Origin: Psychrobacter sp. ANT_WB68
Lineage (GTDB): Bacteria; Pseudomonadota; Gammaproteobacteria; Pseudomonadales; Moraxellaceae
Length of the DNA: 64,000 nucleotides
Direction of reading: 5' to 3'
NCBI RefSeq assembly: GCF_008369115.1
Contig: NZ_VOAZ01000004.1
Coordinates: 1 to 64,000, forward strand
Below, piece by piece: positions 15,833 to 30,900 of the stretch; within the stretch, counting starts at the first letter, position 1, and every line of letters starts with the position of its first letter. The notes below the pieces were generated by a model. It did not search any database. It was not told the origin of the DNA and was given only the letters and a program-made list of their open reading frames with translations. The position numbers and the translations under genes were made by a program.

Positions 15833-17191
15833 ATGAGTGATCTTCAAGACCCTAATGACAAGCCAGTAGTCGATGCTGATGCGATTAGCAAAGCAGAGCT
15901 GCCGCCATACCGCCAAGCTGATACGCGAGCGCCTAAACCATCATCAAAATTCCCGTTATGGTTATTGCCAGTATTGGCTATCGTACTTGTCATTGGGGTG
16001 TTGGTTGGTAAATACTGGGGCGGCGATAAAGCAGCGAGTGATGAGTTACCAGCGGCTAGCAGTGCGCAAAGCGCAACTGCCGACCCAAAAGATAGCAGCA
16101 ACCAGCAAGCGGTATTATCAGTCGAAACAGTATCGCCAAGCCAAGACAGTATTGGTAACACGCTGAGTGCGGATGGCACCATCAACGCTAAAGATGTCGC
16201 TAATGTCAGCGCCAAAGTAAACGGCGTTGCTATCGAACGTATATTGGTCCAAGAGGGCGATCGCGTCAAAGCGGGGCAAGTACTGGCGATATTTGATACC
16301 GATGCCATGGAGCAACAAGTCTTGCAAGCTGAGGCAGATGTTGCCGAAGCAGAAGCAACCCTTGCCAATGCGACTGCCGATGCAGCTCGTGTCCTGCCGC
16401 TGATTGAGATAGATGCCATTAGTAGACAAGAAGCGGATCGCTATCGCACCTCTAAACTGCAAGCACAGGCGGCACTACAAGCGTCCAAAGCGCGCCTCAG
16501 TACCCAGCGTTTAAGTGTCAATAATGCCAATGTAGTCGCACCGGTCAGTGGTGTTATCAGTGAAAAAATGGCTGAAGTTGGCATGGTTGCTGGTGGTGAG
16601 CCATTATTTACCATTATTAAAGGTGGTGTTTTAGAGTGGCGCGCGGATATCGATCCTAAACTCCTTGGTGAAGTCAATGTCGGCACGCAAGTGCGTGTCA
16701 GCTTACCGGGTGGCGATTCTGTGATGGGGCAAGTAAGCCGTATTGCACCAACGGCCGATAATAACCGTCAAATCACTATTTATGCTAGCCTCGCTGCTAA
16801 CTCAAAAGTGCGTGCTGGCATGTACCAAACGGGTGAATTTCTATTGGGTAGTACTAGTGCTCAGACCGTACCGAATAGTGCCATTGTCAGCAATGATGGC
16901 TATGATTATGTGATGCTAGTGACCAATGTCAGTAGCCAAGACGGTAAAAACATAGGACGTATCAAACAACAACGCGTGACCCTTGGCGAACGTTTTGGCG
17001 ATAGTGTTGCGCTGACAGAACCACTGCCTGCAGAAAGTCGACTTGTGAAGCAAGGTGGTAGCTTCCTAAACGATGGGGACTTGGTACGGGTTGTTAATAG
17101 CATTAATACAGCTAATGATAAATCGGGTAGCCAAGCTGGTAAAACGGCAAACACCGCAACCAATGGCATAGCCACGCAGGCGCGTTCATGA
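15833..17191 (+). CDS. RND efflux periplasmic adaptor (membrane fusion protein)
   Basis: 452 residues. A cytoplasmic N-terminus of about 40 residues precedes one TM helix (about 41-59, WLLPVLAIVLVIGVLVG), so it is anchored rather than a lipoprotein. Next come the beta-barrel/lipoyl parts split around a helical hairpin: VNGVAIERILVQEGDRVKAGQ (first lipoyl half), then Ala/Gln/Glu-rich helices, then ANVVAPVSGVISEK (second lipoyl half), followed by the barrel and membrane-proximal regions. It links the permease encoded next to an outer-membrane channel. Its stop codon overlaps the permease start by 4 bases (ATGA), which implies coupled translation. No outer-membrane factor gene is adjacent. Confidence 0.93.
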   Translation: MSDLQDPNDKPVVDADAISKAELPPYRQADTRAPKPSSKFPLWLLPVLAIVLVIGVLVGKYWGGDKAASDELPAASSAQSATADPKDSSNQQAVLSVETVSPSQDSIGNTLSADGTINAKDVANVSAKVNGVAIERILVQEGDRVKAGQVLAIFDTDAMEQQVLQAEADVAEAEATLANATADAARVLPLIEIDAISRQEADRYRTSKLQAQAALQASKARLSTQRLSVNNANVVAPVSGVISEKMAEVGMVAGGEPLFTIIKGGVLEWRADIDPKLLGEVNVGTQVRVSLPGGDSVMGQVSRIAPTADNNRQITIYASLAANSKVRAGMYQTGEFLLGSTSAQTVPNSAIVSNDGYDYVMLVTNVSSQDGKNIGRIKQQRVTLGERFGDSVALTEPLPAESRLVKQGGSFLNDGDLVRVVNSINTANDKSGSQAGKTANTATNGIATQARS

Positions 17192-20100
17192 GTTTAAATG
17201 TCTCCGCTTACTCGATTAGAAATCCTTTAGTAGCTATTCTGCTGTTTGTACTGCTGACCTTGGGCGGCCTCTACGGTTTTATGCAAATGAAGGTGCAGCA
17301 GTTTCCTGATATTGACCTGCCAGCGGTGGTAGTTACCGTTACCTTACCGGGTGCCGCGCCATCGCAGCTCGAAAATGATATTGCAAAAAAAGTTGAAAAT
17401 AAGCTCACCAGTATTGAGGGAGTCAAGCATATTCGCACCACCCTACAGACGGGCGCTGCGACCATGGTCACCGAGTTTGTCTTGGAAAAAGACATTCAAG
17501 AAGCGGTTGACGATGTGCGTTCGGCAGTCGGTGAAGTGCGTGGCGATTTGCCAGCTGCAGCCAATGACCCCATCATTACCAAGGTTTCAACCTCAGGATT
17601 TCCCGTTGTTACCTATTCTGTTGCGTCTGAAAATATGAATGTGGAAGACTTGTCTTGGTTCGTTGATGATACGGTTACCAAGCGTCTCTCCGACATACCG
17701 GGTGTCAGTACCGTCAGCCGCATCGGTGGGCTACAGCGAGAGATTACGGTTGCTGCTGACCCTATTACCTTAAGTGGTCTTAAGCTTTCTATCACTCAGT
17801 TATCCAATCAAATCACCGGTATCCAGCAAGACAGCTCTGGCGGTGAAGCAGAAGTGGGCAAAACCACACAGACTATTCGTGTGCTTGGCGCCGTTGAGCG
17901 CGCCAGCGATTTAAATAATTTACAAGTCGCTGTTCCTACTGGCGGTACGCAAGCACTTGGGCGTATGGCGCAAATCACCGATGGCGCTGCTGATCCAAGC
18001 TCTATTGCCAAGCTCGATGGGCAAACGGTAGTCGCATTTAATATTACACGTTCGCGCGGTGCTAGTGAAGTTGAAGTCATGGAGTTGGTTGACGCAGAGT
18101 TAGCCAAGTTGTCAGCCGATGTCGGCAATATCGATATTGAAAAAGTCTATGATCGAGCCACACCCATTGCCGAAGACTATCAAGCGTCCTTACGCATGCT
18201 GATAGAAGGTGGTTTGCTAGCTGTAGTGGTAGTATTCTTATTTTTGCGCAATATCCGTGCCACCTTTGTGGCTGCAGTGGCATTGCCGTTGTCCGTTATC
18301 CCGACGTTTTTGGGCATGTACTTATTTGGCTTTAGTCTTAATATTATTTCGCTCTTGGCACTATCACTGGTCATTGGCGTACTGGTCGATGATGCGATTG
18401 TGGAAGTCGAAAATATCATCCGCCATTTGCGTATGGGTAAGACGCCTTATGAAGCCGCTATGGAAGCGGCTGACGAGATTGGCTTAGCAGTAGTCGCGAC
18501 CACCTTTACCTTAATTGCGGTATTTTTACCGACTGCCTTTATGGGCGGTATCGTTGGACAGTTTTTCCGTCAGTTTGGTTGGACAGCAGCACTATCAATA
18601 TTCGCATCATTAATGGTCGCGCGCCTTATTACCCCAATGATGGCTGCTTATATATTACGCCCAGAAAAAAAGCACGTCGAAAAACAAAGCGCGTTGATGG
18701 ACTGGTATCTTAAAGTAGTCTCATGGACATTGCATCATCGCTGGATTACGATGGCTGCGACTTTACTATTGTTCGTGGCATCGTTGGCGTTGGTGAAATT
18801 ATTACCAACCTCTTTTATTCCTGATAATGATATTGATCAGACGCGGGTTGAGATTGAGCTGACCCCTGATGTGGCACTAGAAGATACCGAGCGTGTTGCG
18901 GCGCTGGCCAGCGAGCGCATCTTAGCCATGCCTGAAGTGACTCATATCTTTACCTCGGTAGGAGAAGCACAGGCGGCAATGGAAGCCGGCTCTGGCGGTA
19001 AGGCTGAAAATATTGCGGGTTTGGATGTGGTGCTTGCTCCGAGAGCAGAACGTGGCTCTAAGCAAGAAATTGAGCGTAAAATCAGTAGTATGTTGTCAGA
19101 AGTGCCGGGTGCGCGCTTTACCGTTGGTTTATCGAGTGGCGGTGAGACGGGTTATAATTTTTCTTTGACTAGTACCGACCCACAATTGCTTGAACAGACA
19201 GCTCAGCAAATGATGGCAGAGATTCGGGCGTTACCAAGCTCGGGTGCTGTTACCAGTGATCGCAGTCTGCCACGCCAAGAGCTGACAGTGACGCCAGACA
19301 GGCTAGCAATGGCCGATAAAGGCGTGACGACACAAGATATCGCCACCACCTTACGGGTGGCGACCGTTGGGGATTATGAGCAGCGTTTATCTAAGCTTAA
19401 TTTGGATACGCGGCAGATACCCATAGTGGTACGTTTACCTGATATTGCCAAGCAAAATGTCAGTCAGTTAGAAGGCTTATATGTACCGAGTGCCTTACCA
19501 GCGGGACAAGGCGTGCGTGTAGGTGAAGTGGCGTCATTAGATTTTGGTACTGGCCCTGCGCAAATCAGCCGCCTCGATCGTGAGCGGGCGATTAGTATTA
19601 CCGTTCAGCCTGCCAATGGTGAGCTGGGCGACTTGGTACAAGCGGTTAAGAGCATACCAAGTATGCAGCAGTTGCCAGCCTCTATTACTATTATTGACCA
19701 AGGGCAAGCAGAAAACATGGCTGAGTTATTCAGTGGCTTTGTGATTGCGATGTCGGTCGGTGTGGTCTGTATTTTAGGAGTGCTTATTTTATTGTTTGGT
19801 CGTATCTTGCAGCCTTTTACCATTTTGATGGCGTTACCATTGTCTATCGGTGGCGCTTTTGTCGGCTTGGTGATTACTAATAGCAGTCTATCGATGCCAT
19901 CGATGATTGGTTTTATTATGCTGATGGGTATTGCGACCAAAAACTCTATCTTATTGGTCGATTATGCATTGATTGCTCAACGTCGAGGCTTGGCGCGTTT
20001 TGATGCCATTATTGATTCGTGCCGTAAGCGTGCGCGGCCAATTATTATGACCACCATTGCGATGGGCGCGGGCATGATGCCTTTGGTCTTTGGTTGGGGC

Positions 20101-20286
20101 GATGCTGATCCCACCTTTCGCCGTCCGATGGCTGCAGCGGTATTGGGCGGTTTGGTTACCTCAACGTTATTAAGCCTGGTGGTCATACCCGTAGTGTATA
20201 CCTTGATGGATGACTTATCAGGATGGTTTGGCAAATGGTTGATACCGCATGGCAAAGATAAGGAAAGCACAGTTATCGAAAAATAA
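17188..20286 (+). CDS. RND family efflux permease (HAE1-like)
   Basis: Inner-membrane proton-driven exporter of 1032 residues, the normal HAE1 size. TM1 is at about residues 11-29. The porter domain starts with the typical QFPDIDLPAVVVTVTLPGA and NDIAKKVENKLTSIEGV blocks. TM4 carries the proton-relay pair Asp401-Asp402 in IGVLVDDAIVEVENI. A second porter domain and TM7-12 follow, including GIATKNSILLVDYA with Lys and Asn of the relay. Start overlaps the adaptor stop (ATGA). It is closer to the MdtB/MexF-type general pumps than to heavy-metal CusA, but the substrate cannot be read. The operon has no third gene, so the outer-membrane channel must be encoded elsewhere. Confidence 0.95.
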   Translation: MSLNVSAYSIRNPLVAILLFVLLTLGGLYGFMQMKVQQFPDIDLPAVVVTVTLPGAAPSQLENDIAKKVENKLTSIEGVKHIRTTLQTGAATMVTEFVLEKDIQEAVDDVRSAVGEVRGDLPAAANDPIITKVSTSGFPVVTYSVASENMNVEDLSWFVDDTVTKRLSDIPGVSTVSRIGGLQREITVAADPITLSGLKLSITQLSNQITGIQQDSSGGEAEVGKTTQTIRVLGAVERASDLNNLQVAVPTGGTQALGRMAQITDGAADPSSIAKLDGQTVVAFNITRSRGASEVEVMELVDAELAKLSADVGNIDIEKVYDRATPIAEDYQASLRMLIEGGLLAVVVVFLFLRNIRATFVAAVALPLSVIPTFLGMYLFGFSLNIISLLALSLVIGVLVDDAIVEVENIIRHLRMGKTPYEAAMEAADEIGLAVVATTFTLIAVFLPTAFMGGIVGQFFRQFGWTAALSIFASLMVARLITPMMAAYILRPEKKHVEKQSALMDWYLKVVSWTLHHRWITMAATLLLFVASLALVKLLPTSFIPDNDIDQTRVEIELTPDVALEDTERVAALASERILAMPEVTHIFTSVGEAQAAMEAGSGGKAENIAGLDVVLAPRAERGSKQEIERKISSMLSEVPGARFTVGLSSGGETGYNFSLTSTDPQLLEQTAQQMMAEIRALPSSGAVTSDRSLPRQELTVTPDRLAMADKGVTTQDIATTLRVATVGDYEQRLSKLNLDTRQIPIVVRLPDIAKQNVSQLEGLYVPSALPAGQGVRVGEVASLDFGTGPAQISRLDRERAISITVQPANGELGDLVQAVKSIPSMQQLPASITIIDQGQAENMAELFSGFVIAMSVGVVCILGVLILLFGRILQPFTILMALPLSIGGAFVGLVITNSSLSMPSMIGFIMLMGIATKNSILLVDYALIAQRRGLARFDAIIDSCRKRARPIIMTTIAMGAGMMPLVFGWGDADPTFRRPMAAAVLGGLVTSTLLSLVVIPVVYTLMDDLSGWFGKWLIPHGKDKESTVIEK

Positions 20287-20460
20287 TCAGTATTGCTAAA
20301 GTAGTTTTTAGGTCAATCACACAGGAAGTGGTTGACCTATAATATTTAAGCGCAGTTTTGCTGAATTGTTCTCCACTCAAATACTGTTTGTCTAAAAATA
20401 GCTTATTTAACAAAAAGCTGAATGGGCAACTGCTCATACCCCACGACAAGGGACTGTCTC

Positions 20461-21111
20461 ATGTCTATTTTCCTAGTGAATCATACATCATCTGGATATC
20501 TTCAGCGTTATACTTATCCATTAGCCATCGTCTCATTATCGGCAGCTGCTCTCGTAAGTACGGTCAGTAGTCAGGCAGCTACTTATCATCTCGATTCTAC
20601 TCATAGCAATGTTCGCTTTGCCATCGACCATTTTAATACCTCGACCAATACCGGTGGTTTTTATAACTTAACTGGTCAGCTCGAATATGACAAAGCTGCT
20701 AAGACAGGTTATATAGCGCTTACTATTCCTTTAAATAGCTTAAATACGGGCAATAAAGCCTTTGATATTACCCTTAAAAGCGCAGATTTTTTTGATATTG
20801 AAAAATTTCCATTGGCGCATTTTGAGTCGACTCAATGGCATTTTTCGACTGATAAAGCCAGCTCTGATAAAGACAGCGCAGCTGTCAGTCAAGTGGATGG
20901 CATGCTAACGCTACATGGTAAAACCAATCCTATTACCCTTACCGCCATCAAGTTTAATTGCTATTTCAATCCGATACTAAAAAAATCGGTGTGTGGGGGC
21001 GATTTTACGACGACTATTGATCGGACAAAGTGGGGTATCAGTAAATACACCTTATTGGGTATGACGGAAAAGGTTGAGTTGAATATTCAGATTGAGGCAG
21101 TCAAGCAATAA
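20461..21111 (+). CDS. Secreted YceI-family protein (full-length copy)
   Basis: About 216 residues. Signal peptide to SSQAA, then the YceI lipocalin-like barrel beginning TYHLDSTHSNVRFAIDHF. Family members bind long isoprenoid-type lipids in the periplasm. The ligand here is unknown. ATG 20461 has CAAGGGA 7 bases upstream. ATG 20422 would add 13 residues and has no such site. The barrel part from 20621 onward is repeated at 25988, where the 5' third of the gene is missing. This copy differs from the second at Ile (ATC) versus Thr (ACC) near the middle. The stop codon lies just inside the right end of the repeat. Confidence 0.9.
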   Translation: MSIFLVNHTSSGYLQRYTYPLAIVSLSAAALVSTVSSQAATYHLDSTHSNVRFAIDHFNTSTNTGGFYNLTGQLEYDKAAKTGYIALTIPLNSLNTGNKAFDITLKSADFFDIEKFPLAHFESTQWHFSTDKASSDKDSAAVSQVDGMLTLHGKTNPITLTAIKFNCYFNPILKKSVCGGDFTTTIDRTKWGISKYTLLGMTEKVELNIQIEAVKQ

Positions 21112-21113
21112 TT
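20621..21113 (+). repeat. 493-bp direct repeat, copy 1 (3' two-thirds of yceI)
   Basis: Begins CCATCGACC and ends TCAAGCAATAATT, two bases past the yceI stop. Aligned by eye to 25988-26480: same length, no gaps, and two mismatches (C/T and T/C, in ACCGCCATC versus ACTGCCACC). Confidence 0.95.
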
Positions 21114-21383
21114 GTTATTAAATGTTAATTATTATGATTTGAACTAGATATTTGGCAATCAGATAGTTGTTCATGATTCAGAGAGATGTTTTTAAATGCT
21201 TACTTTTTCATAGAACATTGAATCTGCATGGGAATTAGGATATATATTTTACAAATAAATGATCGTAGATCGATAAAAGTGTTGAACTTAACCAAATATT
21301 GTTTTATTGTAGCGCTATAAATTTCACTGAAAATTATAATGATATAACGCAATATTACTGATGTTGCCTTATAGAATTTTACG

Positions 21384-21412
21384 TTGACATAAAGTATACG
21401 GTTTGGTAGTCT
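21384..21412 (+). promoter_or_regulatory. Candidate promoter of the surface-lipoprotein gene
   Basis: TTGACA at 21384-21389, a 17-base spacer, then TAGTCT at 21407-21412. The -35 is perfect and the -10 is poor. It lies 100 bases before the start codon. The leader from 21114 to 21512 has no ORF. Confidence 0.4.
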
Positions 21413-21512
21413 TAACGTTAAACCGAGCTGTTGCTACTAGCTGTAGCTGATGGTGAAATATACAGTACTGTCTACACATGAGTAGTTCTTACATAGATAT
21501 AAGGAAATGAAC

Positions 21513-23060
21513 ATGAAACAAAAGTATTTAGCAGTAGCCCTGAGTGCTGTTTTTGCAGCAACGGCTTTAACAGGTTGTGGTAGCGATAACGACAGCAACT
21601 ACGTTCCACAGTTGCCAACTCCTACGCCAACTCCTACGCCAACTCCTACGCCAACTCCTACGCCAACTCCTACGCCAACTCCTACGCCAACTCCTACGCC
21701 AACTCCAGGCCAAGGTGATGAAGACAATACTGGTGCGGCAGCAGAAGGTAATCTAGATCTTAAGAAAGAAACGACAGTTGGTGGCCAACAGTACGTACGC
21801 GGAACTGAAGCTGAGTTCGATCGTGAGTTGAACCCTGCAGATGCTAAGACTGGTAATGCTACTGTTTTGAATGGTATTAACATCCAAAATAAAAAGCTTA
21901 ACAACATCGTTATCGGTCGTGAAACTGTTAAACGTGTTGAAGGTGATCAAGCATTAATTCGTTATGCTGGTGAAGCTGTAGAAGGATTCTCTAAAGAGAG
22001 CCCTGCAGATACTAAAGAGCTTCAAGAATATAACGTTGCTAACGGTGTTGACGTAGCAAGTGCTAATAATAGCTTGAATGGTTTAGTTGTTATCAGTAAA
22101 GGTGACACTGATACGAACTTCACCGTTGAAGGTCAGGAAAACGATTCAGCTGCTAAAAACAATATCAACGCAATTACTGGTTCGAAATTGAATACTCGCA
22201 TTTTCGGTAATAAATACCGTAACACTGATAACAGTGCAACTAATAATGCTTCTGACAAAAACAGTGTTCGCTTTGTAACTACTACAAATGCTGCAGGTAA
22301 TTTGGTAGTGAACACGACTGATAAGCCATCATTTAAAGCTATTAAGCTTGACGATGTTCAGTACGGCCGTGTTACTTCAAATATTGACAAGTTGACAGAC
22401 GCTGAACTTGAAGGTAAAGAGTACAAGTACTATCAATCTGTTATATCAGATGCTCAAGATAGAGATTCTGCAGGAACTGCTGGTAAAGAAACAGTAGATA
22501 CCTACTTCTATCGCGGTACTAACGAAACTACTATCGCTCAGATGGATGCTTTGCAAGCCAAAGGCGGCAAAGTTAGCTATGCTGGCCATGCGTTAATGTA
22601 TGGTATCGATAACTCATATCATGGCGACAAAGGTGATCCAAACAGTAACTCGTTTGGCGGTGGTAATACAGCAGTGAATGGTCAAGGCAACTATGTCCAA
22701 GCTACTGTAGATATGGGTGATAGAACTATCGCTGGTAATATCTTCAATGTATGGGAAGTCAAACCAGCTGAAGGCGCAAATGTCTTTAAACAAGATAAAC
22801 TTGTAAACTTCAATGGTAAAGTATTTGGTAATACTGCTAAAGGTGAATCACAGTTAGCTTATGGTTCTAACAAAGATAAAGGTACATTCAAAGGTACTTT
22901 CTTTGGAAAGAATGCTGATGAGCTTGGTGGTGCTGTAAACTCTGTTAATTCAGGATATGGTAATGCAGCTTGGGGCGGTGTGTTTGGTGCAGAGAAAGTT
23001 GTTGCTCCAACTACGCCAGTTGAGCCACCAAAAGATGGTAACGCTAACCAAACTGAATAA
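21513..23060 (+). CDS. Slam-type surface lipoprotein with TbpB-like C-terminal barrel
   Basis: About 515 residues. The lipobox LTGC gives an acylated cysteine at residue 22, with Gly at +2, so there is no inner-membrane retention signal. A Pro-Thr tandem linker (about 30 residues) follows the N-terminal acylated peptide. Residues about 80-270 are an Asn/Asp-rich region of unknown fold. The C-terminal half has hallmarks of the TbpB beta-barrel domain: TYFYRGTNETT, a VDMGDRTIAGNIFNVWE strand pair, FNGKVFGNTAKG and the paired motif GTFKGTFFGKNADELGG, with WGGVFGAEK closing it. Such domains bind host or environmental iron carriers or similar ligands. The ligand here is unknown. AAGGA at 21501 favours ATG 21513 over 21507. 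The adjacent slam gene is the likely exporter. Confidence 0.82.
   Translation: MKQKYLAVALSAVFAATALTGCGSDNDSNYVPQLPTPTPTPTPTPTPTPTPTPTPTPTPTPTPTPGQGDEDNTGAAAEGNLDLKKETTVGGQQYVRGTEAEFDRELNPADAKTGNATVLNGINIQNKKLNNIVIGRETVKRVEGDQALIRYAGEAVEGFSKESPADTKELQEYNVANGVDVASANNSLNGLVVISKGDTDTNFTVEGQENDSAAKNNINAITGSKLNTRIFGNKYRNTDNSATNNASDKNSVRFVTTTNAAGNLVVNTTDKPSFKAIKLDDVQYGRVTSNIDKLTDAELEGKEYKYYQSVISDAQDRDSAGTAGKETVDTYFYRGTNETTIAQMDALQAKGGKVSYAGHALMYGIDNSYHGDKGDPNSNSFGGGNTAVNGQGNYVQATVDMGDRTIAGNIFNVWEVKPAEGANVFKQDKLVNFNGKVFGNTAKGESQLAYGSNKDKGTFKGTFFGKNADELGGAVNSVNSGYGNAAWGGVFGAEKVVAPTTPVEPPKDGNANQTE
21615..21706 (+). repeat. 12-bp tandem repeat encoding a Pro-Thr linker
   Basis: Seven perfect copies of CCAACTCCTACG (21615-21698) followed by a partial eighth. 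Each copy encodes Pro-Thr-Pro-Thr. Because the unit is a multiple of three, changes in copy number lengthen or shorten the linker and do not shift the frame. Confidence 0.97.
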
Positions 23061-23091
23061 TAGTTAGATTGATACCTAATAGTTAGTAAAC

Positions 23092-23117
23092 AAGCGGCCA
23101 CCTTAGAGTGGTCGTTT
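23092..23117 (+). terminator. Intercistronic stem-loop between lipoprotein and slam
   Basis: A 10-bp stem (23092-23101 with 23108-23117, two G-U pairs) around a 6-base loop. The U-run after it is short (TTTGTG), so it probably attenuates or protects mRNA rather than ending it fully. It could let the lipoprotein be made in excess over its exporter. Confidence 0.4.
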
Positions 23118-23156
23118 GTGCATCTGGTAATTAACAATTAACTGATTGGAACCTTT

Positions 23157-24650
23157 ATGCAATATTTTCGACACTCTACTATGTATACTGCCTTAATTTT
23201 GATTTCAGGTTGTTATTCTGTAAGTTCTTTGGCTATTGGTGCTCCTCTAGCTCCTCAAGACAATTCTATTGAGTCTATTAATAAAGAGATAGGTGAAGTA
23301 CGTCCTGATAATTTCGAGACTTTATCTACTGATTTGCCTTCTAATGATTCAGGGCCACAAATGAGCAAGGAAGAGACTATTGTGTATCTTCGTGCCAACC
23401 CTGAAGAATTTGAAAATTTATTGTCAATCCTATTAAAACAAGGTAATGCTGATTCTTTAGAAGAATTACTGCCCTACTATAAGCAAGTACCTAACTATGA
23501 CCCCTCTGTTATTGATTGGGGTAATGCTATTATTGCTGCTAAAAAGGGTGATTTTGACGAAGCAGTAAATATTTACCGAAAAGTAAATGCACAGCTGCCT
23601 GAGGTTGAAATTCTAAGGTTTCAATTAGCAATGGCCCTATTTTATAATCGTCAGTTTGATGCAGCGCAATCAGAGTTTGAAAGACTACGTAGTGATGCTA
23701 CTACGGAAGGCGATGTACAGGTTATTAATAAATATTTAGATTCTATCAACTCTCAAAATCGTTGGAGCTTCAATGGATCTGTCTCTTATGTAAATGATAA
23801 CAATATCACTAATTCTCCTAAACAGGGAACCAGTATAATCAGAGAGGACGGATCAGTACTTACCTATACCTCTCCAAGAGAATCAGGAAAGGGCTTAAAT
23901 TTTAGTTTAAATGGTGACAGAAAGTGGTTGTATGATAATAAAATGTATACGGCTTTGCATCTTAATAGCTATGGTCAATACTACTGGGATAATAAGAACT
24001 ACAACGATATTACCGCGGGTATCGGTGTGGGAGTAGGTTACCAGAATTCAACTACCGAAGTAGAATTAGTACCATTTTATAATAAACGTTTATATGCTCA
24101 AGGCAGAAGTGGAGATGGTGATTTAAAAAGTTATGCTGATACTACAGGTATTAGGGTTAACTTAAATCAATGGCTCAGTCCAAAAGTACGCTATCAAGGC
24201 TTAGCGCGTTATGCAAATTCAGAATATATTGATCTTTATGATTATAATGATGGTGAAGATTGGTTATTAGCCAATACTGCTATATATTTTCCAAATGGGC
24301 AGCAATTTTGGACATTTGGGGTAGATTATTCCACTAGAGATTCTGAAGATGATTCGCTAGCTTATGATCGTCCAGGTGTTAGAGTAGGTTGGGGTCAGAC
24401 GTGGCCAAAAGGATATACTACCAGGCTAGACTTTGGTTATGCGGAACGCAATTTCGATGGTGAAGATTTCTTTGGTATTCAGCGTGAAAACAAAGAATAT
24501 AGTGCTGGTATTACAGCATGGAATAGAGGATTCTCTTTCTTAGGCTTAACCCCAAGACTAAGCTGGAATTATAATAAAGTAACCAGTAATTCGCCTTTTG
24601 AAGAGTACGATAAAAATGACGTATCAGTCGAATTGACTAAAACGTTCTAA
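23157..24650 (+). CDS. Slam-type surface lipoprotein assembly modulator (DUF560)
   Basis: Outer-membrane protein that moves lipoproteins to the cell surface. 497 residues, the usual Slam length. A signal peptide (about 1-27, with ISGC inside it) precedes an N-terminal helical TPR-like domain (to about residue 190: WGNAIIAAKKGDFDEAVNIY, then LRFQLAMALFYNRQFDAAQ). Next is the junction NRWSFNGSVSYVNDNNITN that opens the DUF560 beta-barrel. Regularly alternating beta strands continue to the last residues ELTKTF, whose final Phe is the usual outer-membrane barrel end. The barrel would be about 300 residues, consistent with 14 strands. Placed 97 bases after the lipoprotein gene in the same direction, which makes that lipoprotein its probable client. 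Confidence 0.87.
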   Translation: MQYFRHSTMYTALILISGCYSVSSLAIGAPLAPQDNSIESINKEIGEVRPDNFETLSTDLPSNDSGPQMSKEETIVYLRANPEEFENLLSILLKQGNADSLEELLPYYKQVPNYDPSVIDWGNAIIAAKKGDFDEAVNIYRKVNAQLPEVEILRFQLAMALFYNRQFDAAQSEFERLRSDATTEGDVQVINKYLDSINSQNRWSFNGSVSYVNDNNITNSPKQGTSIIREDGSVLTYTSPRESGKGLNFSLNGDRKWLYDNKMYTALHLNSYGQYYWDNKNYNDITAGIGVGVGYQNSTTEVELVPFYNKRLYAQGRSGDGDLKSYADTTGIRVNLNQWLSPKVRYQGLARYANSEYIDLYDYNDGEDWLLANTAIYFPNGQQFWTFGVDYSTRDSEDDSLAYDRPGVRVGWGQTWPKGYTTRLDFGYAERNFDGEDFFGIQRENKEYSAGITAWNRGFSFLGLTPRLSWNYNKVTSNSPFEEYDKNDVSVELTKTF

Positions 24651-24688
24651 TTTAGCTATCCATACATACAGATAAGAGATATTAACTT

Positions 24689-25963
24689 ATGCGCCGTTCC
24701 CTGCCCATTTTTATAGGATTGCGCTTTACCCGTTCAGAAAGTTCCAATAAGTTTCTATCTTTTATATCTTTAGTATCTATGGCTGGTTTAATACTGGGTG
24801 TTGCTGCATTAATCGTAGTGACATCAGTTTTGAATGGTTTTGAAGAAGTACTGTCTAAGAAAATATTAGGAATGGTGCCACAGGCAGCAGTTTATTCGTC
24901 CATTCCTCTCAATGATTGGAACTCGTTTGCAAAAATCATAGAAAAAAACGATAGCAATGTAATAGCTACGGCACCTTTTGTTCAGGCTCGAGGTATGTTG
25001 TCACTAGAGGGAGAGGTTAACAGCACCATAATAAATGGTATAGAGCCTGAATCCCATGCTAAAGTTTCTATTCTTAGACAAAGTATGGTAGAAGGTAGTT
25101 TCTATAGTTTGAATACTGGTAGTAATAATATTATCCTTGGTGAATATGTCGTCGATAAATATGCTCTGAAACTTGGCGATGAAGTTGGTATTATAATCTC
25201 TAAGCCCTCTAGCTCTACAGTCGGTATTACACCTACATTTCACACCTATACCCTCACTGGCGTATTTCATGTCAGCCAAGAGATAGATAAGTGGATGAGT
25301 TATGTTTCCATGGACGGTGCTTCTGACGTAGTGGGCTTAAATCATGGTGCTACTGGTATCCGCCTAAATTTAAGAGATGTTTTCCTCTCTCAAGATTCCG
25401 CCCAAAAAGCATTGGCAAGTATTTCTGATCAAGCTGTACTACTCCAGAGTTCCCAAGAAAATCTTGCATTCTCGAGTGGTGATTGGACACAGACTCATGG
25501 CAGCTTGTATACTTCCATTCGTATGCAAAAAACTATGATGTCGTTACTATTATTTCTTATTATTTTAGTTGCGGCGTTTAATGTTATTTCAACATTGGTG
25601 ATGAGCGTGACAGAGAAGAGGTCAGATGTTGCAATATTAAAAACCTTTGGCGCCTCACCCAGTCTTATTTCACGTATATTTATAGTTCAAGGCGCTATCA
25701 TTGGCGTCTTCGGTATATTCATTGGTCTAGCCTTAGGAATTACACTTTCGCTTAGCATTCCTAGCGTATCAGCTTGGATCAATGTCACTTTTGATTTGGG
25801 GCTTTTTGATAATTACTTCGTTGAATCGCTCCCTTCTAAAATTAAGCTCATAGATATCGTACTTATTTTAGTCTCTGCGCTAATTGTTGTCTTATTGTCT
25901 ACTATTTATCCCGCATATAGTGCTGCTAGAACTGAGCCTGTAAAAATACTGAAGGGTGAGTAA
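24689..25963 (+). CDS. LolC/LolE-family lipoprotein-releasing permease
   Basis: 424 residues with the Lol topology: one TM helix at the start (ISLVSMAGLILGVAALIVVTSVLNGF), a large periplasmic domain (about 50-275), then three C-terminal TM helices (MMSLLLFLIILVAAFNV, IFGIF-type, VLILVSALIVVLL) and the FtsX coupling segment EKRSDVAILKTFGAS. In the periplasmic part a loop with SKPSSSTVGITPTFH lies where LolC carries its LolA-binding hook. The canonical partner ATPase LolD is missing here. Its position beside slam and a lipoprotein suggests a dedicated release step, but it may also be a LolF-like paralog using the chromosomal LolD. The gene is visibly A+T-rich. Confidence 0.82.
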   Translation: MRRSLPIFIGLRFTRSESSNKFLSFISLVSMAGLILGVAALIVVTSVLNGFEEVLSKKILGMVPQAAVYSSIPLNDWNSFAKIIEKNDSNVIATAPFVQARGMLSLEGEVNSTIINGIEPESHAKVSILRQSMVEGSFYSLNTGSNNIILGEYVVDKYALKLGDEVGIIISKPSSSTVGITPTFHTYTLTGVFHVSQEIDKWMSYVSMDGASDVVGLNHGATGIRLNLRDVFLSQDSAQKALASISDQAVLLQSSQENLAFSSGDWTQTHGSLYTSIRMQKTMMSLLLFLIILVAAFNVISTLVMSVTEKRSDVAILKTFGASPSLISRIFIVQGAIIGVFGIFIGLALGITLSLSIPSVSAWINVTFDLGLFDNYFVESLPSKIKLIDIVLILVSALIVVLLSTIYPAYSAARTEPVKILKGE

Positions 25964-25987
25964 TAGACCATGATAACGTATGCTTAC

Positions 25988-26478
25988 CCATCGACCATTT
26001 TAATACCTCGACCAATACCGGTGGTTTTTATAACTTAACTGGTCAGCTCGAATATGACAAAGCTGCTAAGACAGGTTATATAGCGCTTACTATTCCTTTA
26101 AATAGCTTAAATACGGGCAATAAAGCCTTTGATATTACCCTTAAAAGCGCAGATTTTTTTGATATTGAAAAATTTCCATTGGCGCATTTTGAGTCGACTC
26201 AATGGCATTTTTCGACTGATAAAGCCAGCTCTGATAAAGACAGCGCAGCTGTCAGTCAAGTGGATGGCATGCTAACGCTACATGGTAAAACCAATCCTAT
26301 TACCCTTACTGCCACCAAGTTTAATTGCTATTTCAATCCGATACTAAAAAAATCGGTGTGTGGGGGCGATTTTACGACGACTATTGATCGGACAAAGTGG
26401 GGTATCAGTAAATACACCTTATTGGGTATGACGGAAAAGGTTGAGTTGAATATTCAGATTGAGGCAGTCAAGCAATAA
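25988..26478 (+). pseudogene. 5'-truncated second copy of yceI
   Basis: Holds the barrel part of YceI in frame from the codons for Ile-Asp-His-Phe to the stop. It lacks the signal peptide, the first strand and any start codon or ribosome site. The in-frame sequence upstream enters the cassette boundary. It is 493 bp of direct repeat with the intact gene. A TTG at 26179 could start a 99-residue fragment, but nothing supports translation there. Confidence 0.85.
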
Positions 26479-26480
26479 TT
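25988..26480 (+). repeat. 493-bp direct repeat, copy 2
   Basis: Same sequence as 20621-21113 with two mismatches. Flanks differ from the other copy on both sides: TTAC before and TTGCTCG after, against TTTG before and GTTATT after. Confidence 0.95.
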
Positions 26481-26748
26481 TGCTCGTTTTAGCATTTTAG
26501 CGTTGAAGGATTTTAACAAGCTACTGGAATTAATAACAACTTTACATTTAAGTGGTATGTTTATAGTGATCTATTAATAGGTTTAAAGAGCGAAATGAAT
26601 GGTTCCTTTGGGTTATCTTAAAATTGAGGTATCTTAAAATAAGACTAGCATTCAAAGCATCCGGTTCATTAATCGCTAAGATAGTGTCCTTGCTACACTC
26701 TTTTAAAGTGCTGTTACCTAAAAGTATTTTAGACAGTGAATAGACCTC

Positions 26749-27504
26749 ATGAAAAATATTGAGCCAATAAATCATTTATTTATCAGGACCTATGACAGCC
26801 AACTTGAAGGTCATACTCATGATTACCATCAAATTCTTATACCATTGATGGGTGACATTAGAATGGTCATTAGCAATCAGACCATTAATGTTTCTTATGG
26901 AGAAGCATTGGTTATCAAAAAAGGTATTCACCATCAATTTCAGGCGAGAGAAGACTTTCGTTTTTTAGTAATAAATATAGAGGATATAGGTTTTTTAGGG
27001 TCGACATTAAATGAAGCGCATTTTTCAATGGACGAAAAAACCTTGTTATATATCTCTTTTGTTGAAAAGCAATTGACCTCTGCTTACAACCAACAGATAG
27101 AAGGGATAATGTTTGAGTTATTAAAACAGCTTCTTGGACATATGCAGATGAGTAAGAGACTGGATACTCGCTTAACTGCCGTTGTTCACACTATCAAGAA
27201 TGATATCGCCGCTAACCACACGATAAAGTCACTTGCTGACATTGCCTGTCTGAGCGAAAGTCAGTTCAAGGTGTTATTCAAAGAGCATGTTGGTTGTACG
27301 CCCCACGCTTATATTACCAACCTTCGTATGAAATCTGCCCTTGGCCTCATTCTAAATACTGACACACCTATTACGATTGTGGCTGAGAAGTGTGGTTACG
27401 ATAATGTGTCTGCCTTCATACGTCGTTTTTCTAGCGTCTATCATCAGACACCATACAGACTTCGTTGTAGCAATCAAAATATGAAGCACCAAAGAATCGG
27501 CTGA
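26749..27504 (+). CDS. AraC-family transcriptional regulator with N-terminal cupin
   Basis: 251 residues. Residues about 15-95 look like the cupin sensor domain, with the HTHDYHQI pattern that opens many AraC sensor pockets and the GIHHQF strand. The C-terminal 100 residues hold two helix-turn-helix motifs: IKSLADIACLSESQFKVLFKEH, then the signature TPITIVAEKCGYDNVSAFIRRFSSVYHQTPYRLR. It likely controls a nearby gene, most simply the EamA transporter that starts 96 bases downstream. No good Shine-Dalgarno is seen before ATG 26749. The inducer is unknown. The gene sits just right of the yceI repeat and is A+T-rich like the cassette. Confidence 0.88.
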   Translation: MKNIEPINHLFIRTYDSQLEGHTHDYHQILIPLMGDIRMVISNQTINVSYGEALVIKKGIHHQFQAREDFRFLVINIEDIGFLGSTLNEAHFSMDEKTLLYISFVEKQLTSAYNQQIEGIMFELLKQLLGHMQMSKRLDTRLTAVVHTIKNDIAANHTIKSLADIACLSESQFKVLFKEHVGCTPHAYITNLRMKSALGLILNTDTPITIVAEKCGYDNVSAFIRRFSSVYHQTPYRLRCSNQNMKHQRIG

Positions 27505-27600
27505 TCAGCATATATTCCAATCTATTCCAACAAACTCTGGAGAATCAATTTTATTATCATAGCGGCATCATTCAAATGCACGCTGCTCAAGGATATAAAA

Positions 27601-28485
27601 TTGAATTTTCACACCCAATCAAAGCAGGATATTGTAAATCTTGCTGCACCTATAGGATTTTTGGCAATATGGAGTGGCGGAGCCATCTTTGCAAAAGTTG
27701 GTTTGCAATATACTGACTCTTGGAGCTTTTTATTTTTAAGATCAGCAATCGCTTTGTCATTGCTACTAGCCATCTATCTAAAATCTGCCCATAAGAAGAT
27801 AGCTATCACTGAGCTTAAGAAAGACCAGCTCAAAGGCATTATATTTTCAGGTCTGTTGCTACAAGTATTCTATTTAACCTTTTACTTCTCAGCTATTAAT
27901 ACGGGGCTATCCCTTGGAATCATTATACTGGTTCTTGGTATGCAGCCAATTATAACGTCACTATTAAGTGCAAACACGGTTAGCGTTAAAAACTTAATAC
28001 TACTAGCGATTTGTTTTTCAGGCTTAGTTTTATCAACATTGGGCTATCATAGCGTTGATAAGATAAATGCTTTAGGTATGATACTTTCCACACTGGCATT
28101 ACTCTCCATCACGTTTGGTGCTATTGCTCAAGCTAACGTTAAAACGCCGCCTATCTTAACCTTGTTAATTCAGACTATATTTTCATTTTTGATATTCTCC
28201 GCGGTGATTGTTTATAAAGGATTATCCTTTGAGGTCAATGCTTCCTCTTTACTATCATTAGTATGGATGGGCGCAGTGGTTTCTGTAGGGGCATATTTAT
28301 TATTGATGCTTATGCTCAAATATAGCTCCGCAGATAAAGTAAGCACCTTGTTCTTCTTGCTGCCTTTATTAACGATGATATTAGAGAGTTTGGTTTTTGA
28401 TAGCACTTTGAGCGCATTAACTATTTTCGGTGCTATTTTGGTGTGCGTAAGCTTGTTTATTTATCAGACTCAAAAACCTTCTTAA
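27601..28485 (+). CDS. EamA/DMT-superfamily transporter
   Basis: 294 residues with about ten hydrophobic helices arranged as two five-helix repeats, the EamA fold, starting with the LAAPIGFLAIWSGGAIFAKVG block. Members export amino acids, metabolites or drugs. The AraC regulator upstream suggests an inducible exporter, in the style of RhtA or YdcZ-type exporters, but the substrate is unknown. The start is TTG at 27601. CAAGGA lies 8 bases upstream and supports it. No ATG is available in the right position. Confidence 0.87.
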   Translation: MNFHTQSKQDIVNLAAPIGFLAIWSGGAIFAKVGLQYTDSWSFLFLRSAIALSLLLAIYLKSAHKKIAITELKKDQLKGIIFSGLLLQVFYLTFYFSAINTGLSLGIIILVLGMQPIITSLLSANTVSVKNLILLAICFSGLVLSTLGYHSVDKINALGMILSTLALLSITFGAIAQANVKTPPILTLLIQTIFSFLIFSAVIVYKGLSFEVNASSLLSLVWMGAVVSVGAYLLLMLMLKYSSADKVSTLFFLLPLLTMILESLVFDSTLSALTIFGAILVCVSLFIYQTQKPS

Positions 28486-28761: not shown

Positions 28762-29799
28762 ATGAGTAAAGAATTTAGCTGTTCAATTAAGCGTATACGT
28801 TTTGATGAAAACTATCATCCTGCAGACAGCACGCGTCTGACTACTAACTTTGCGAACTTGGCGCGTGGCGAGCATCGTCAAGAGAACTTACGCAAAACCT
28901 TAAGAATGATCAATAATCGTTTTAACGCCTTGGCACATTGGGATAATCTGACCGCAGACCGTTATTCTGTCGAGGTCGATATCATTTCTGTCGATATGGA
29001 TGTTGAGGGTAATGGTCATACATTCCCTATCATCGAAACACTGCAAACAACGATTGTTGACCATAAAGAGAATACCCGTATTGATGGTATGATTGGCAAC
29101 AGTTTCTCCTCTTACGTGCGCGATTATGACTTTAGCGTCGTCCTGCCGGAGTATTTCGATAAAAATCCGAAATCTGCACCGCCACAGGATTTTGGTGATT
29201 TACATGGCAAGCTGTTTCAATACTTATTGAACTCAGAAGCCTATCAAGCCAACTTTACTAAAAAACCGGTGATTTGCCTGAGTGTGTCTACCAGTAAAAC
29301 CTATCATCGTACGACCAATCAGCATCCCGTATTAGGGATCGAGTATAGACAAGATGACTATTCGTTGACCGATGACTATTTCCATAAAATGGGCTTAACC
29401 GTTCGCTACTTTAAGCCTACAGATAGTGCGGCGCCTTTAGCGTTTTATTTTGCCGGTGACTTGCTAAGTGATTACACCGACCTTGAGCTAATCAGTGCAA
29501 TCAGTACCATGGAGACTTTCCAAAAAATTTACCGACCTGAAATTTACAATGCCAACTCTACCGCAGGTCAGGTGTATCAACCCAGCTTGAAGTACCAAGA
29601 TTATTCATTGACGCAAATTGTCTATGACCGTGAAGAGCGTAGCCAGATGGCAGTAAAGCAAGGCAAATTTACTGAAGAGCAGTTCATCAAGCCATATCAA
29701 GCCATTCTTGAAGAATGGTCGGCAAGCTATGATGTTGCAAGCGAGACTGTTCAAAGAGAAGCGGATCAAAAAGAAACGGCTAAAAAACAGGCAGCCTAA
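28762..29799 (+). CDS. mesX: DUF1852 protein, partner of folate-independent methionine synthase (MesX-like)
   Basis: 345 residues of the DUF1852 family, recognisable by its tight pairing with a short MetE homologue just downstream. In Acinetobacter the pair was described as MesX with MesD, where methionine formation requires MesX and oxygen. I recall this from the literature and have not checked it. I see no signal peptide or TM helix, so it is cytoplasmic. The C-terminal 30 residues are Lys/Ala/Glu-rich. GCGGATC before ATG 28762 is a weak ribosome site. The gene ends 33 bases before mesD and the two are surely cotranscribed. Confidence 0.82.
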   Translation: MSKEFSCSIKRIRFDENYHPADSTRLTTNFANLARGEHRQENLRKTLRMINNRFNALAHWDNLTADRYSVEVDIISVDMDVEGNGHTFPIIETLQTTIVDHKENTRIDGMIGNSFSSYVRDYDFSVVLPEYFDKNPKSAPPQDFGDLHGKLFQYLLNSEAYQANFTKKPVICLSVSTSKTYHRTTNQHPVLGIEYRQDDYSLTDDYFHKMGLTVRYFKPTDSAAPLAFYFAGDLLSDYTDLELISAISTMETFQKIYRPEIYNANSTAGQVYQPSLKYQDYSLTQIVYDREERSQMAVKQGKFTEEQFIKPYQAILEEWSASYDVASETVQREADQKETAKKQAA

Positions 29800-29832
29800 G
29801 CAATCTAACTCTAGCCAAAATATAGAATACAA

Positions 29833-30900
29833 ATGAATAAGAAGATGAATCCCATGACAATATTATTACCGACACAAAAATTATTACCGACGTCAACTGC
29901 GGGCAGCTTACCGAAACCTTCTTGGCTAGCAGAACCTGAGAAAATCTGGTCACCTTGGGCATTAGAAGGCGAGCAATTGCTTGAAGCCAAACAAGATGCG
30001 CTACGTTTAACATTACAAGAACAACGTCATGCAGGGATTGATATTGTCAGTGATGGCGAGCAGACCCGCCAGCATTTTGTGACCACCTTTATTGAACATC
30101 TTGATGGTGTCGATTTTGAAAAGCGTGAGACCGTGCGCATTCGTAATCGCTATGATGCGAGTGTACCGTCAGTCGTGGGTAGCGTAAGCCGTCAAAAACC
30201 TGTATTTGTGGAAGATGCGAAGTTTTTACGCCAGCAAACGGATCAGCCGATCAAATGGGCGCTGCCGGGCCCAATGACGATGATTGACACGCTATATGAT
30301 GGTTATTATAAAAGTCGTGAAGAATTGGCTTGGGAATTTGCTAAAATTCTGAATCAAGAAGCCAGAGAATTAGAAGAGGCTGGCGTGGATATTATCCAAT
30401 TCGATGAGCCTGCTTTTAATGTGTTCTTTGATGACGTCAACGATTGGGGTATCGCCACGTTAGAGCGAGCCATCGAAGGTCTAAAATGTGAAACGGCGGT
30501 GCATATCTGCTACGGCTATGGTATCAAAGCCAATACCGATTGGAAAAAGACACTGGGTTCAGAATGGCGTCAATATGAACAAGCGTTTCCGAAATTACAA
30601 CAGTCTAATATCGATATTGTCTCACTTGAATGTCAAAACTCACATGTACCCATGGAATTGATTGAATTGATTCGCGGTAAAAAAGTAATGATCGGTGCCA
30701 TTGATGTAGCAACCAATACCATTGAGACGCCTGAAGAGGTGGCCAATACGCTACGCAAAGCCCTGCAATTTGTCGATGCGGATAAGCTCTATCCTTCGAC
30801 TAATTGCGGCATGGCACCGTTGTCTCGCCAAGTGGCACAAGGCAAATTGAAAGCATTAAGCGCGGGCGCAGAGATCGTTCGTCAAGAACTGACTGCTTAG
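29833..30900 (+). CDS. mesD: Core MetE-type methionine synthase (MesD-like)
   Basis: 355 residues, half the size of E. coli MetE: only the C-terminal catalytic barrel is present. It starts TAGSLPKPSWLA, the usual barrel opening. All four zinc ligands are visible: His and Cys in AVHICYGYG, Glu in SLECQNSH, and Cys in STNCGMAPL. It should methylate homocysteine to methionine without a folate-binding N-terminal half. The methyl donor is not known from sequence. The DUF1852 gene upstream and the flavin reductase downstream fit the oxygen-dependent MesD type. Start is uncertain among three ATGs (29833, 29845, 29854). The third places the conserved opening closest to the N-terminus. Confidence 0.85.
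   Translation: MNKKMNPMTILLPTQKLLPTSTAGSLPKPSWLAEPEKIWSPWALEGEQLLEAKQDALRLTLQEQRHAGIDIVSDGEQTRQHFVTTFIEHLDGVDFEKRETVRIRNRYDASVPSVVGSVSRQKPVFVEDAKFLRQQTDQPIKWALPGPMTMIDTLYDGYYKSREELAWEFAKILNQEARELEEAGVDIIQFDEPAFNVFFDDVNDWGIATLERAIEGLKCETAVHICYGYGIKANTDWKKTLGSEWRQYEQAFPKLQQSNIDIVSLECQNSHVPMELIELIRGKKVMIGAIDVATNTIETPEEVANTLRKALQFVDADKLYPSTNCGMAPLSRQVAQGKLKALSAGAEIVRQELTA

Follow-up and report, generated by a model that had tools for sequence, protein, structure and literature searches.

A second, divergent LolF permease accompanies one clade of Slam translocons and their client lipoproteins in Moraxellaceae

The stretch of DNA analyzed here (the window, 64,000 nucleotides) comes from contig NZ_VOAZ01000004.1 of Psychrobacter sp. 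ANT_WB68. Three co-directional genes lie together on its forward strand at 21507 to 25963, separated by intergenic gaps of 96 and 38 nt. The first (21507 to 23060) encodes a lipoprotein, hereafter the client, with an LTGC lipobox, a disordered (PT)n linker, and a C-terminal TbpB-like eight-stranded barrel, for which we obtained a single match to TbpB_B_D (PF01298; 5e-20). The second (23157 to 24650) encodes a Slam, the T11SS outer-membrane translocon, with a periplasmic TPR domain (PF24575; 9e-29) and a barrel (SlipAM, DUF560, PF04575; 1.5e-81). The third (24689 to 25963) encodes a LolC/E-family permease that scored 385 bits against TIGR02212 lolCE, where the curated cutoff is 362. A preliminary description of this DNA had proposed just these three kinds of gene in one direction, and the open reading frames and family matches bear it out. 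The flanking genes are on the same strand. Genes for an RND efflux adaptor and pump (15833 to 20286), a terminator hairpin 3' of the RND gene (20309 to 20339), and a full yceI gene for a periplasmic YceI-family protein (20422 to 21111; family match, 9e-38) lie to the left. Beyond the permease are a partial yceI (25988 to 26480), genes for an AraC-type regulator and an EamA transporter (26749 to 28485), and the mesX-mesD methionine synthase genes (28762 to 30900).

Upstream of the client gene, a consensus match to a sigma-70 promoter (TTGACA-17-TAGTCT, forward strand, 21384 to 21412) is conserved in the alignment with genomes G024 and G025, both P. immobilis, and is likely the promoter of the unit. 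Between the client and Slam genes, at about 23091 to 23120 on the same strand, there is a stem-loop followed by a T-rich stretch. It is conserved in relatives, with 12 consensus pairs over six sequences; two of the pairs carry changes on both sides. This is a possible attenuator, which could lower expression of slam and the permease relative to the client.

The structure model of the client had a mean pLDDT of 46 and was poor outside the barrel. The C-terminal barrel itself (approximately residues 331 to 496) was mostly at pLDDT 57 to 88, except for a loop at 367 to 388, and it matched the lobes of LbpB, TbpB, fHbp, and NHBA (best, 9e-9). The model and the Pfam match thus agree on the TbpB-like C-terminal domain that the preliminary description had assigned. 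Comparison by sequence to solved structures gave a meaningful match for the PT-repeat region only and was thus uninformative. The linker varies by genome, being built of PT, PET, or other repeats. In the window, the (PT)n linker is encoded by a 12-bp tandem repeat (21614 to 21706) whose length differs among the window, G024, and G025. Since such changes are always in frame, they alter the length of the linker and do not switch the gene off. A role in iron uptake gained no support, as inspection by eye of the upstream block common to G024 and G025 revealed no obvious Fur-type site and the unit has no TonB-dependent receptor.

The two yceI copies share a direct repeat of 493 bp with two mismatches (20621 to 21113 and 25988 to 26480), which is far above chance. 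As first described, the right copy starts 24 bases past the permease stop; it lacks the first 199 nt of the gene and is presumably without function. The left gene begins at 20422, and the start originally given for it, 20461, is an internal ATG. The statement that the three genes sit exactly between the copies is right for the repeat and wrong for the genes. The left repeat ends 2 nt past the yceI stop, and the first cassette gene starts 395 nt later (21507), with the candidate promoter in the gap.

A repeat of this length and identity predicts RecA-dependent loss of 5,367 bp that would leave one intact yceI, which fits a mobile cassette whose insertion and excision depend on recombination of the bracketing yceI copies. 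As a general mechanism, however, this is very unlikely. A second yceI is missing from all seven other copies of the unit: at this site, yceI is absent from the P. immobilis copies, and in G082 a single one lies to the right. Nor is yceI present at the closest empty site (G031), no integrase or transposase reading frame was present in 20287 to 26760, and the independent copies of the unit have no terminal repeats in common, the yceI repeat being private to the window. The yceI frame is therefore incidental to the unit. The duplication of yceI arose locally, for example when incoming DNA crossed over inside yceI; a single crossover and one-ended illegitimate joining both fit. The idea of one transferable unit covering the whole pathway also had to be given up. 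The three-gene cassette has neither LolD nor LolA and is therefore not self-sufficient. What did stand is the unit itself: client, Slam, and Lol-family permease belong together and are conserved as such, and neither of the two findings named beforehand as refuting the description was made.

Between the RND pump and mesX lies a variable hotspot, for which the RND pump is the left border at the loci compared. In G031, araC and eamA come immediately after the RND gene, and both yceI and the unit are missing. The window and G031 are homologous up to about 20339, where the RND terminator hairpin ends, and again from about 26565. Compared to this closest empty site, the insertion spans approximately 20340 to 26564, yceI included, and the block common to independent copies of the unit is approximately 21270 to 25964. 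At the same site, other genomes carry nothing (G014 and G089), yceI only (G010), yceI with another gene (G069), the unit only (G024 and G025), or the unit with a single full yceI behind it (G082); yceI is a frequent neighbor here in relatives. Three further Psychrobacter genomes (G054, G055, and G036; loci L110, L111, and L112) have yceI there, accompanied by another kind of Slam and an fHbp-like client that point the opposite way. Two unrelated Slam systems thus occupy one chromosomal site. The mesX-mesD right border might contribute to the co-occurrence of T11SS and one-carbon metabolism reported in PMC12282271. When we looked for the unit on plasmids, only distant LolF and Slam matches were found, and the unit itself was absent.

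Elsewhere in the genome there is a housekeeping lolF (491 bits, compared to 385 for the window permease) with lolD beside it. The window permease is therefore a second, divergent copy, which we call LolF', and not the only LolC/E gene of the genome. Nearly all of 105 genomes of the genus had a housekeeping LolF, and six had a second LolF, which in 6/6 was directly downstream of the highest-scoring Slams and on the same strand. We extended the search to 349 Moraxellaceae at a cutoff of 1e-80, at which more divergent copies could be missed, and found 12 genomes outside the genus with a second strong LolF. Nine of these have a tandem lolF-lolD-lolF2, one (G346) has a copy with its own lolD, and two (G297 and G328) have divergent copies that also directly follow a lipoprotein and a Slam. 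A divergent second LolF is thus linked to the lipoprotein-Slam pair in 8/8 cases, in three genera, and the order lipoprotein-Slam-permease is not incidental. Relatives without this Slam lack LolF' as well. LolF was not beside other Slams at the Moraxellaceae loci checked outside the clade, and no permease adjoined the Slams of Pasteurellaceae (35 to 39% identity) or of three genomes from other families.

The nine genomes with the tandem arrangement belong to another genus, likely Acinetobacter; we set their loci aside as housekeeping loci unrelated to Slam and used them as our control. One such locus was examined in full (L071, 3226 to 6371), and the other eight show an identical spacing of 1,910 bases; L045, L049, L056, L057, and L063 are among the tandem loci, and LolF2 retains the Hook. 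The second LolF of G346 was rejected as a member of the unit, having its own adjoining lolD and no Slam. Some genomes also hold Slams of other kinds. On another contig of the window genome (L042, 480 to 5447), a second, distant Slam adjoins a candidate surface lipoprotein of 1,087 amino acids with GATGATG-type repeats, without a permease. In P. lutiphocae, about 8 kb from the unit, another Slam is accompanied by a short lipoprotein of its own but by no LolF (L040, 1540 to 4021), and this Slam groups with those of Pasteurellaceae. Finally, the record BMPS01000016.1 (L120, G297:C16), titled Streptomyces cinereus JCM 3040, carries the unit in a genome placed in Moraxellaceae and is mislabeled or contaminated.

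In a tree of 31 Slams (quick method), the eight linked Slams formed one clade (SH-aLRT, 99). The eight LolF' proteins formed one group apart from 24 other LolF proteins (support, 89/95), although a single origin is less sure for LolF' than for Slam, since the G297 and G328 proteins are on long branches. Branching order was the same in both trees: (G297, G328), (G032, G047), and the window with G082, G024, and G025. Between the window and G024, the dN/dS of LolF' was 0.10, indicating purifying selection. Over the same pair, dS was 0.86 for LolF', 0.19 for housekeeping LolF, and 0.40 for the RND pump; a LolF' value well above both others suggests exchange of the unit between strains. G024 and G025 differ little in Slam (dS, 0.05) and LolF' (0.07) and more in the flanking RND gene (0.35). 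Their clients are only 71.5% identical (dS, 0.70; dN/dS, 0.30; L038, 5143 to 9624, versus L039, 5800 to 10317). Here the machinery is kept and the cargo varies.

An apparently exchanged unit in a variable hotspot is also what would be expected if the permease had been captured once beside slam and kept by linkage in a recombining region, with no role in display of the client. We believe this to be quite unlikely. The gene is kept with an intact frame in 8/8 cases across deep divergence and several chromosomal settings, it is under purifying selection (dN/dS as above), and the Slam and LolF' trees are congruent.

All eight genomes have one LolD above the cutoff, beside the housekeeping lolF, and one LolA; no lolD adjoins the LolF' gene. 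If LolF' uses ATP in this way, it must therefore use the common LolD. To see which parts of LolF' have changed, we took as reference the 181 residues invariant across 20 housekeeping LolF proteins. The coupling loop facing LolD (residues 303 to 326; 25595 to 25666) retained 15/17 of these in the window protein. In the segment of residues 167 to 187 (25187 to 25249), which aligns with the Hook (167 to 179) and Pad of E. coli LolC that dock LolA (PMC10865981), only 4/17 were retained, compared to 113/164 elsewhere in the protein (Fisher P = 4e-4). When only the other periplasmic residues served for comparison, P was 0.012. Retention was 3 to 8 of 17 in the other LolF' proteins, and the contrast was significant in six of the eight, which are not independent. 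When retention was scanned over the entire protein in windows of 21 residues, the minimum fell at and just before the Hook/Pad segment, making it one of the least retained stretches. The LolF2 control kept 16/17. The Lys at the position of LolC R182, invariant in 23 LolF proteins, is H, Y, T, or Q in LolF', and the Lys-Arg pair invariant in housekeeping LolF (LolF' positions 185 and 186) is replaced in 8/8. In the window, G024, G025, and G082, LolF' also has a 12-residue insertion in the region (residues 231 to 265; 25379 to 25483) aligned with the LolE substrate cleft (231 to 253; PMC12846838). The predicted model of LolF' (pLDDT, 70) matches the LolE/LolC fold, with the best Foldseek match to LolE (6e-31). 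By these comparisons of sequence, LolF' has kept its LolD-facing residues and lost most of the invariant residues of the LolA-docking Hook/Pad.

The unchanged fold and family, the conserved LolD-facing loop, and the retention of Hook length and of Pro182 would suit a permease that merely adds dose. LolF'2-LolD2 would then be an ordinary transporter handing all lipoproteins to LolA, and it would sit near slam because an abundant surface lipoprotein loads the Lol pathway. Such a transporter should have kept the LolA-docking residues, as the tandem LolF2 did (16/17, against 4/17), and this reading also fits poorly with the loss of the Lys-Arg pair and with a remodeled substrate-cleft region in the LolF' proteins near that of the window. 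We consider it improbable. Loss of docking is a separate matter, for in E. coli the Hook is tolerant of substitutions, and its sequence differs from one species to another (PMC10865981). With Hook length kept, docking of LolA may therefore survive in LolF'.

Taken together, we believe that the three genes probably form one Slam (T11SS) pathway unit in which LolF' is a dedicated inner-membrane release subunit for the client, borrowing the housekeeping LolD. In support of this, we observed the gene order, a second LolF in genomes with one LolD and one LolA, inheritance of LolF' together with a single clade of Slams, purifying selection on the window LolF', the conserved LolD-facing loop, the altered Hook/Pad, the insertion in the cleft region, and the TbpB-like barrel of the client. 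The eight examples are all from Moraxellaceae. In our model, the client would be exported by Sec and lipidated, carrying its long disordered linker and C-terminal barrel. We infer that LolF' binds LolD and takes the client as its substrate, so that the cell's single LolD would drive extraction of the client from the inner membrane. LolF' may act as a homodimer or as a LolF-LolF' heterodimer in which it has the substrate-binding, LolE-like role. The client would then pass to Slam as the presumed next partner, and the TPR domain and barrel would carry it to the surface, where the unit is expected to function. A private permease is not needed in general, because known Slam systems use the ordinary Lol pathway, LolA, and Skp, and reconstitution of Slam is reported to use LolA and Skp (PMC9090332).

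Two narrower versions of this model differ in what happens to LolA. LolF' may act in the heterodimer only, with the Hook of LolF recruiting LolA and LolF' contributing the cleft for the substrate, so that labor would be divided anew as it is between LolC and LolE. A lost Hook/Pad signature next to a retained coupling loop, and a LolF with an intact Hook in all eight genomes, agree with this, and E. coli LolC and LolE are specialized in just such a manner (PMC10865981, PMC12846838). Homodimers of LolF' could form as well, however, and we regard the strict version as possible at best. Alternatively, since the LolA-docking signature is lost and coupling to LolD is kept, LolF' might start a LolA-independent route in which the client is passed to the TPR domain of Slam or to a holdase. 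A path independent of LolA and LolB below LolCDE has been described in E. coli, according to work cited in PMC7857515. We find such a bypass rather doubtful here; if it is true, one branch of Slam has its own two-membrane lipoprotein secretion path, apart from the shared Lol pathway.

If one Slam clade has a Lol permease of its own, Slam clients would be sorted from ordinary outer-membrane lipoproteins at the inner membrane, and our data suggest that some surface proteins have a dedicated route that begins there. The unit is a small natural system of three genes: client, release subunit, and translocon. Paired strains exist in which the client has changed and Slam and LolF' have not, and a second LolF beside the housekeeping one is a natural experiment on the roles of the Hook, Pad, and cleft. 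In a search of the main text of freely accessible papers, we found no publication on a Slam locus joined to a Lol permease paralogue. The main text of two T11SS surveys (PMC12282271 and PMC8406197) names no Lol permease partner, and the cutoff of 25 co-occurrences in PMC12282271 would hide a case as rare as this one.

The unit resembles the Slam1-TbpB and Slam2-HpuA systems of Neisseria and Moraxella in its DUF560 barrel, periplasmic TPR domain, and adjoining client with a TbpB-type barrel. It differs from them by adding a private LolF paralogue, and surface display of the client is here a prediction. The client is also like known lipoproteins with proline-threonine-type repeats ahead of TbpB-type domains, except that it has one TbpB_B_D match only and that its linker may be PT, PET, or other. 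Compared to LolF-LolD, of which LolF has been solved (9w2w and 9w35 to 9w37), LolF' is homologous over its full length (358 to 361 bits), with four transmembrane helices and a MacB-like periplasmic domain. Unlike LolF, it has no adjoining lolD, is dispensable by distribution, and has lost Hook/Pad residues and gained 12 residues in the cleft region. E. coli LolC-LolE offers the parallel of two different permease subunits per cell on one LolD, one of them without a LolC-type Hook sequence; those subunits, however, are essential, share an operon with lolD, and serve all outer-membrane lipoproteins. The Borrelia BBJ23-29 locus (PMC13078400) has likewise been proposed to serve export, with a LolE-like permease coupled to TPR proteins and a barrel of the outer membrane, but that barrel is of the unrelated Omp85 family and the locus has its own ATPase and its own LolA homologue. 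Every part of the unit is thus of a known kind; what is new, so far as the tests reach, is that the parts come in one fixed combination and that the Hook is altered.
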